A DNA stretch of 54,256 nucleotides, from positions 1 through 54,256 of the forward strand of contig JAKMFD010000121.1 in NCBI GenBank assembly GCA_022425625.1. Reading direction: 5' to 3'. The notes under the pieces are model-generated. The model had not been told where the DNA came from and searched no databases. It saw nothing but the letters and a program-made list of their open reading frames with translations. Source of the DNA: Crocinitomicaceae bacterium (GTDB taxonomy: Bacteria; Bacteroidota; Bacteroidia; Flavobacteriales_D; Crocinitomicaceae). Both the position numbers and the translations under genes were made by a program. Below are positions 420 through 41,515 of the stretch, one piece after another (the first letter of the stretch is position 1; every line of letters starts with the position of its first letter).

Positions 420-489
420 TATTTAACCGGGAAAACAATCATCGAAGGACAATGCCTTAATTCATGATTCCCACCTAAAACTAAATAAA

Positions 490-26738: not shown

Positions 26739-26779
26739 TCTACGTAAAAACACGTAGAGCACTAGTGCTTTTTACGTAG
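26739..26779 (+). terminator. Inverted-repeat structure downstream of the gldFG operon
   Basis: CTACGTAAAAA (26740-26750) pairs perfectly with TTTTTACGTAG (26769-26779); alternative hairpin TCTACGT/ACGTAGA (26739-26758). Confidence 0.55.
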
Positions 26780-26831
26780 TTCTGTTTATGGGTAACTCCC
26801 TACATATTCAAAACTTTATTCAAGAAATACA

Positions 26832-26861
26832 TTTGAAATTTAAAAGTTTAAATTATCTTTA
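26832..26861 (+). promoter_or_regulatory. Bacteroidetes-type promoter for a small intergenic RNA
   Basis: TTTG (26832-26835) - N18 - TATCTTTA (26854-26861), close to TTTG/TAnnTTTG. Confidence 0.6.
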
Positions 26862-26865
26862 AATC

Positions 26866-26990
26866 GAGTTAATAGATTAGTAGTTTAGCTTAGTGGAAAG
26901 TATTTTAATCAATAAGCGATTAGAAAAAACATTATCTCTTCTTATTTCCACTAGTACTGTCTAACCAGGGGCCCTTCGGGGCCCCTTCTA
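26866..26990 (+). ncRNA. Candidate 6S-like structured small RNA
   Basis: Promoter-to-terminator unit of about 120 nt without a convincing ORF; 9-bp stem TAGTGGAAA/TTTCCACTA (26891-26899/26945-26953), inner hairpin TAATC/GATTA, asymmetric internal loop. Confidence 0.5.
26968..26985 (+). terminator. Intrinsic terminator with C(UUCG)G tetraloop
   Basis: GGGGCCC-TTCG-GGGCCCC followed by TTCTATTTG. Confidence 0.85.
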
Positions 26991-27022
26991 TTTGTTGTCG
27001 TTTGTAAATATTCGTAACTTTG
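26991..27022 (+). promoter_or_regulatory. Promoter of the outer-membrane protein gene at 27027
   Basis: TTTG (26991-26994) - N20 - TAACTTTG (27015-27022). Confidence 0.65.
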
Positions 27023-27026
27023 ATAC

Positions 27027-27743
27027 ATGATTAAATCAATACTTTTTATCGGGGCATTTTTTTTCAGCTTTTATTCTCTTTCACAATTAATTACCACTCA
27101 AAGTCAAACTAAATCTAAAATTTCTTTTGACACCTCCACTTATCTTTACTTCGATACTGATATTATTTCTTCATTCAGATCATTAGCTCCTAATGAAGCA
27201 CATTTAAATACTCCTTTGGGAATACGCTCAGACGAAAGTCGACTCATTTGTAGCAGTTTCACAATAGGGATTTCTTTACCGCTAAACCAATTTATAAAAG
27301 TTAATAGTGGCTTGTCTTTCATCCAAAATGGAGAAGCTTATAATTGGTCCTCCAGCATAAATGACAGTACGTACAATTATAATTCTAAATACCGTTACAT
27401 AGGACTTCCAATATCGTTAAGCACTGCTTATGGTAAAAAATTAAAGCTGCATATTTCAGCGGGTATCATACCAGGTATTTTTAGTAGCTACAGACAACAA
27501 TTAGATTGGACAGATGCAGATGGCTCGGAATACGATGAAGAAATAAAAATTCAAAATGACCTTAACTTCTTTAATCTAGCTGCGCAAGGTAGTCTTGGTA
27601 TAGAATATTACTTTAAAGCTTTTTCTTTCCGAATGTCTTGTATCTATAGACAACAATTGAACAACACGTACAAAGAGTTTGAAGACTACATCCATAAGTC
27701 ATGTGGAATGGGCGGAAGGCTCACATTAACCTATTTTTTATAG
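27027..27743 (+). CDS. Outer-membrane beta-barrel-like protein
   Basis: Signal peptide, alternating beta-strand pattern (FIQNGEAYNW, YRYIGLPISLSTAYGKKLKLHISAGIIPG). Confidence 0.75.
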   Translation: MIKSILFIGAFFFSFYSLSQLITTQSQTKSKISFDTSTYLYFDTDIISSFRSLAPNEAHLNTPLGIRSDESRLICSSFTIGISLPLNQFIKVNSGLSFIQNGEAYNWSSSINDSTYNYNSKYRYIGLPISLSTAYGKKLKLHISAGIIPGIFSSYRQQLDWTDADGSEYDEEIKIQNDLNFFNLAAQGSLGIEYYFKAFSFRMSCIYRQQLNNTYKEFEDYIHKSCGMGGRLTLTYFL

Positions 27744-41369: not shown

Positions 41370-41427
41370 TTTTATAAAAAATTAAACAAGAACAAGGGGC
41401 CAATTCTTATTGGTTATAAATAATTAT

Positions 41428-41513
41428 TAGCTCAGTCATCTTCCCTGCGCAGGCATTATCCTAATCAGGTTCAATGGGTGTAATCTCAGCCTTTCGGCAC
41501 CCCTTAGAGACGA
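41428..41513 (-). promoter_or_regulatory. TPP (THI-box) riboswitch
   Basis: Minus strand ...CTAAGGGGTGCCGAAAGGCTGAGATTACACCCATTGAACCTGATTAGGATAATGCCTGCGCAGGGAAGATGACTGAG matches THI-box consensus. Confidence 0.95.
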
Positions 41514-41515
41514 TG

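Follow-up and report, generated by a model that had tools for sequence, protein, structure and literature searches.

The 54,256-nt stretch of DNA analysed here (the window) very probably contains a genuine RNA gene, unnamed and previously unlisted, of an uncultured marine Flavobacteriales bacterium. Sequence comparisons suggest, with a probability of roughly 0.45, that its product is a lineage-specific, Hfq-independent RNA that would act in trans through a conserved core. The earlier note had taken the locus for a compact, independent small RNA gene, and this description, with promoter-like boxes, a conserved core and an intrinsic terminator, appears to hold. Inspection of the sequence confirmed the positions of the parts it had listed, namely the TTTG-N18-box, the 9-bp stem with its 45-nt interior, the small hairpin and the terminator. 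The features of the locus are as follows.

26866..26990, + strand: small RNA gene, roughly 125 nt; the -7 box gives the inferred start and the terminator the inferred end
26832..26835, + strand: TTTG, candidate -33 element, not conserved among homologs
26854..26861, + strand: TATCTTTA, candidate -7 element (consensus TAnnTTTG), promoter called by motif only
26891..26899, + strand: 5' arm of the P2 stem, TAGTGGAAA
26945..26953, + strand: 3' arm of the P2 stem, TTTCCACTA
26906-26910 and 26918-26922, + strand: TAATC and GATTA, arms of an apical hairpin with the loop AATAAGC, predicted in the close clade (defined below) only
26908..26927, + strand: core A, ATCAATAAGCGATTAGAAAA, identical in all homologs
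26935..26951, + strand: core B, TCTCTTCTTATTTCCAC, identical in all homologs except that of genome G114, which has one inserted T
26967..26986, + strand: intrinsic terminator, AGGGGCCC-TTCG-GGGCCCCT, with an 8-bp stem and a UUCG loop
27015..27022, + strand: TAACTTTG, the -7 box of the downstream outer-membrane protein (OMP) gene itself

The spacer between TTTG (26832-26835) and TATCTTTA is 18 nt long, and the arms of the P2 stem enclose exactly 45 nt. One terminator-like site was found, with 0.2 expected by chance, and the pairing of its stem is kept through C-G/G-C and C-G/U-A exchanges between homologs. The pairs of the terminator and of the outer helix were registered by hand; in the MAFFT alignment, the sister clade had its 5' arm misplaced and its terminator moved by one column. 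For this reason the automatic fold was set aside, as was the automatic terminator count, which gave no excess over shuffles.

In agreement with the earlier note, which had seen no convincing open reading frame in the unit, no frame of at least 30 aa is present over positions 26866-26990 on either strand. A gene for a small protein (about 23 codons), starting with GTG at 26893 and stopping just before the terminator, is nevertheless conceivable, as this frame is open in most of the close homologs. It lacks a start codon in the sister clade, however, and is shifted in G114, and the candidate peptide was rejected on these grounds; in addition, third positions are no less invariant than the others. 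No ATG or TTG start was found in the five homologs tested. We regard this explanation as very improbable.

The conservation in related genomes that the earlier note had set as a criterion is strong and extends over 12 genomes, and it is for this reason that the locus is read as a gene beyond chance. In the close clade, which comprises eight genomes, the 105-nt body of the RNA (terminator excluded) of the other seven is 95-100% identical to the window copy; identity to the window at the four-fold degenerate sites of gldG and of the gene that follows it (the post-gldG gene) is 0.73 in the nearest genome (G017) and 0.33-0.38 in the other six. In the three sister-clade genomes measured, the respective values are 73-76% for the body and 0.24-0.32 for the four-fold degenerate sites. 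The signal recognition particle (SRP) RNA is 97-100% identical among the close-clade genomes measured (without G026 and G074) and 96-98% identical to that of the sister clade. Thus, in the close clade the constraint on the RNA body is about that of SRP RNA, while across clades the RNA changes more than SRP RNA does.

The genomic site of the gene is constant. A DNA search of 60 relatives revealed five further copies, and ten emerged when the regions upstream of Nif3 were compared, all located between the post-gldG gene and a gene of an outer-membrane beta-barrel protein; in each of the 11 loci read, the site lies between the post-gldG gene and OMP/Nif3. The neighbouring products contain the domains ABC_transp_aux (GldG), OMP_b-brl_2 (OMP) and DUF34_NIF3 (Nif3), and nothing in Pfam matches the post-gldG gene product. 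With a covariance model of the RNA, strong matches were obtained in 12 of the 86 genomes of the genus, in a search that scored 40 candidates per genome and may have missed strongly diverged copies. Two weak matches of this model, an additional one in G074 (C229, 25.8 bits) and one in a thirteenth genome, G023 (C43, 23.1 bits), resemble unrelated terminators by eye. A fuzzy search gave no copies either near the post-gldG gene in 20 further members of the genus or upstream of OMP in the remaining ones. G100 carries the RNA twice, on contigs C42 and C2, each copy adjoining a copy of the post-gldG gene, perhaps as a result of strain mixture. In protein trees of Nif3 (11 carriers among 30) and of the post-gldG gene product (10 among 30), both rooted at the midpoint and built from best-matching genomes rather than from the whole genus, the carriers form one side of a single well-supported branch. 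Among 84,980 species genomes, the core 20-mer occurs in 13 stretches, 12 of which belong to marine Flavobacteriales/Crocinitomicaceae assemblies; the thirteenth is on a Neomarinimicrobiota contig, with flanks that show no further part of the RNA. A mobile element was considered and rejected, as searches of viral contigs, phages and plasmids gave no match. Our literature search found no paper linking Crocinitomicaceae and small RNA.

The predicted fold is less constant than the sequence of the core. The whole unit including the terminator folds with z = -3.4 relative to shuffles, while the z value of the body alone is -1.2 (21 of 200 shuffles are equally stable) and those of the bodies of three homologs are -0.7, -1.7 and -0.9. 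The whole-unit value is due to the terminator, so that the evidence is provided by the conservation and not by the drawn shape as such. The bubble-in-a-hairpin shape described in the earlier note is present in the window, and its small hairpin is predicted in the close clade with a probability of 0.95-0.98, but in the sister clade this probability does not exceed 0.15 (37 C). Similarly, the internal loop and the outer TTAG/CTAA pairing exist in the window, although their register, as judged by eye, differs in the sister clade. The GUGG/CCAC part of the stem is invariant and so provides no covariation, and the extension of this stem, AAUCC/GGAUU in the sister clade vs. AGU/ACU in the close clade, represents, as registered by hand, one compensatory change on one branch. 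The pyrimidine-rich part of core B is predicted to be unpaired in the close clade. Apart from the one inserted T in G114, ATCAATAAGCGATTAGAAAA and TCTCTTCTTATTTCCAC are unchanged although the folds predicted around them differ.

The OMP gene is on the same strand 40 nt downstream, the terminator immediately precedes it and synteny is kept in all loci read, which is what a cis-acting leader or attenuator of this gene would predict. However, upstream of the OMP start codon (ATG at 27027) there is a TTTG at 26991-26994 followed by an N20 spacer and TAACTTTG, and -7 boxes resembling the latter precede OMP in the homologous loci, where they too are placed after the terminator. With a separate promoter-like box for OMP, the RNA looks like an independent unit rather than an OMP leader. 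Moreover, most genus-mates that do not have the RNA retain an OMP-like gene before Nif3, and the locus matches no riboswitch or leader family of Rfam. There is thus only a slight chance that the RNA is a leader. As to the promoter of the RNA itself, TATTTTTG stands in place of TATCTTTA at the equivalent position in the sister clade. The -33 TTTG/-7 TAnnTTTG consensus has been described (PMC7366714), and in F. johnsoniae the -33 element could not be identified (PMC7366714).

The proposal of the earlier note that the RNA is 6S-like was not borne out. The RNA has no match in the 6S families, occurs in one branch of the genus only, has a body that folds hardly more stably than shuffled sequences, and its bubble and hairpin are not conserved in the sister clade. 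A scan of the locus with Rfam gave no family at the gathering score, and the models of 6S (RF00013), 6S-Flavo (RF01685) and Flavo-1 (RF01705) gave no match to it up to E 10, so that the check with the 6S-Flavo and 6S models, which the earlier note had proposed, was negative. Also, 6S-Flavo and Flavo-1, which it had treated as one class, are separate families with separate entries in a published table (PMC2864571). The locus does not reach the 6S-Flavo cut-off of 85 bits, and at other places in the genome of the window there are weak matches of 21.7 and 21.5 bits; the former (G000, contig C60) and its look-alikes in G017 and G027 appear by eye to be coding and were rejected. At E up to 10, weak 6S-Flavo matches occur in most of 15 genomes, some of which were inspected by eye. 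No 6S-Flavo was found in 100 relatives, and in none of 245 genomes of the order did a match reach the cut-off. Two matches in genomes of the order lie below it: L169 (1398-1518, - strand, 46.4 bits vs. 85), which a full-library scan confirmed with this score of 46.4 bits, and L170 (33.6 bits), not seen in that scan; both are possible diverged 6S RNAs. The search for 6S (RF00013; cut-off of 46.4 bits) gave nothing in 14 genomes of the genus, and the controls in four known genomes scored over the cut-off. The missing 6S matches are no proof that the genus lacks 6S.

A highly diverged 6S RNA, that is, an RNA polymerase decoy replacing a 6S not recognisable in the genus, would account for the size, the stem with a large loop and the terminator. 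The lack of 6S matches in the sampled genus genomes also agrees with it, although this is weak evidence, since none of the 245 genomes of the order has a 6S-Flavo match at the cut-off. Both 6S-Flavo (RF01685) and 6S (RF00013) are, like the present RNA, products of independent genes, about 110-190 nt long, with a stem around a large unpaired region. The RNA differs from them in having no covariance-model match even at E 10, another conserved sequence and a range of just 12 of 86 genomes in one clade, with absence from most of the genus. The 6S architecture, in which closing stem, central bubble and terminal stem are kept across relatives, was not found: neither the apical hairpin nor any terminal stem beyond the loop is conserved. 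We therefore consider a 6S identity unlikely, and the tempting 6S annotation is corrected here. Flavo-1 (RF01705), also a noncoding RNA of Bacteroidetes, differs in giving no match to the locus in the Rfam scan. The SRP RNA (RF00169) was likewise rejected, as its model does not match the locus and the SRP RNA gene is on another contig (G000:C193:12859-12956).

The locus has the traits of an intergenic trans-acting sRNA: its own promoter (by motif only), a terminator, no open reading frame and a conserved core. According to the reading that we prefer, transcription would start from the TATCTTTA box and stop at the UUCG terminator, and the hairpin closed by GUGG/CCAC would present the nearly invariant core of about 44 nt. 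The unpaired parts of this core, namely the loop AAUAAGC and ACAUUAUCUCUUCUUA, could then find a partner in trans, with base pairing to mRNA, independent of Hfq, as the likeliest mode. Hfq itself was sought in 15 genomes of the genus and not found, and the controls were detected. Exact complements to an 11-nt piece of core B are no commoner in seven genomes than those to the reversed pattern, and none of those seen is inside a conserved 5' leader; no consistent duplex is formed between the RNA and the neighbouring OMP start.

The main rival to base pairing is the binding of one protein that recognises the whole folded body rather than a seed, with the RNA as a scaffold or in titration. That nearly the whole body is conserved, which is more than a short seed would require, may point to a protein partner; in the close clade, constraint extends to almost all bases of the body and is comparable to that on SRP RNA, and the complements of core B are not enriched. 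Since the fold of the body barely beats shuffles and the apical fold differs between clades, we judge a protein-binding RNA somewhat unlikely. The SRP-like constraint in the close clade would also suit a clade-specific, housekeeping-like RNA, possibly replacing the 6S that is unrecognisable in the genus, which seems rather improbable. Further parallels are the Rfp sRNAs of Flavobacterium psychrophilum (PMC9723704) and the Bacteroides sRNAs (PMC7366714), which are also independent intergenic units in Bacteroidetes; the likeness to these two sets is by description rather than sequence, and the present RNA is known from sequence alone. As a well-delimited and strongly constrained RNA gene in a genus without detected Hfq, it offers an entry point to Hfq-independent RNA regulation.

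Other elements were also noticed in the window. Right after the post-gldG gene, at 26741-26783, there is a repeated ACGTA element (CTACGTAAAAACACGTAG...TTTTTACGTAG), which can also be recognised in the homologous loci. It folds with z = -2.2 and is a candidate terminator of the gld operon or a candidate operator. The Rfam scan also revealed a TPP riboswitch at 41425-41514 (- strand, 59.1 bits) and an S4-Flavobacteria ribosomal protein leader at 437-469 (+ strand, 45.6 bits).
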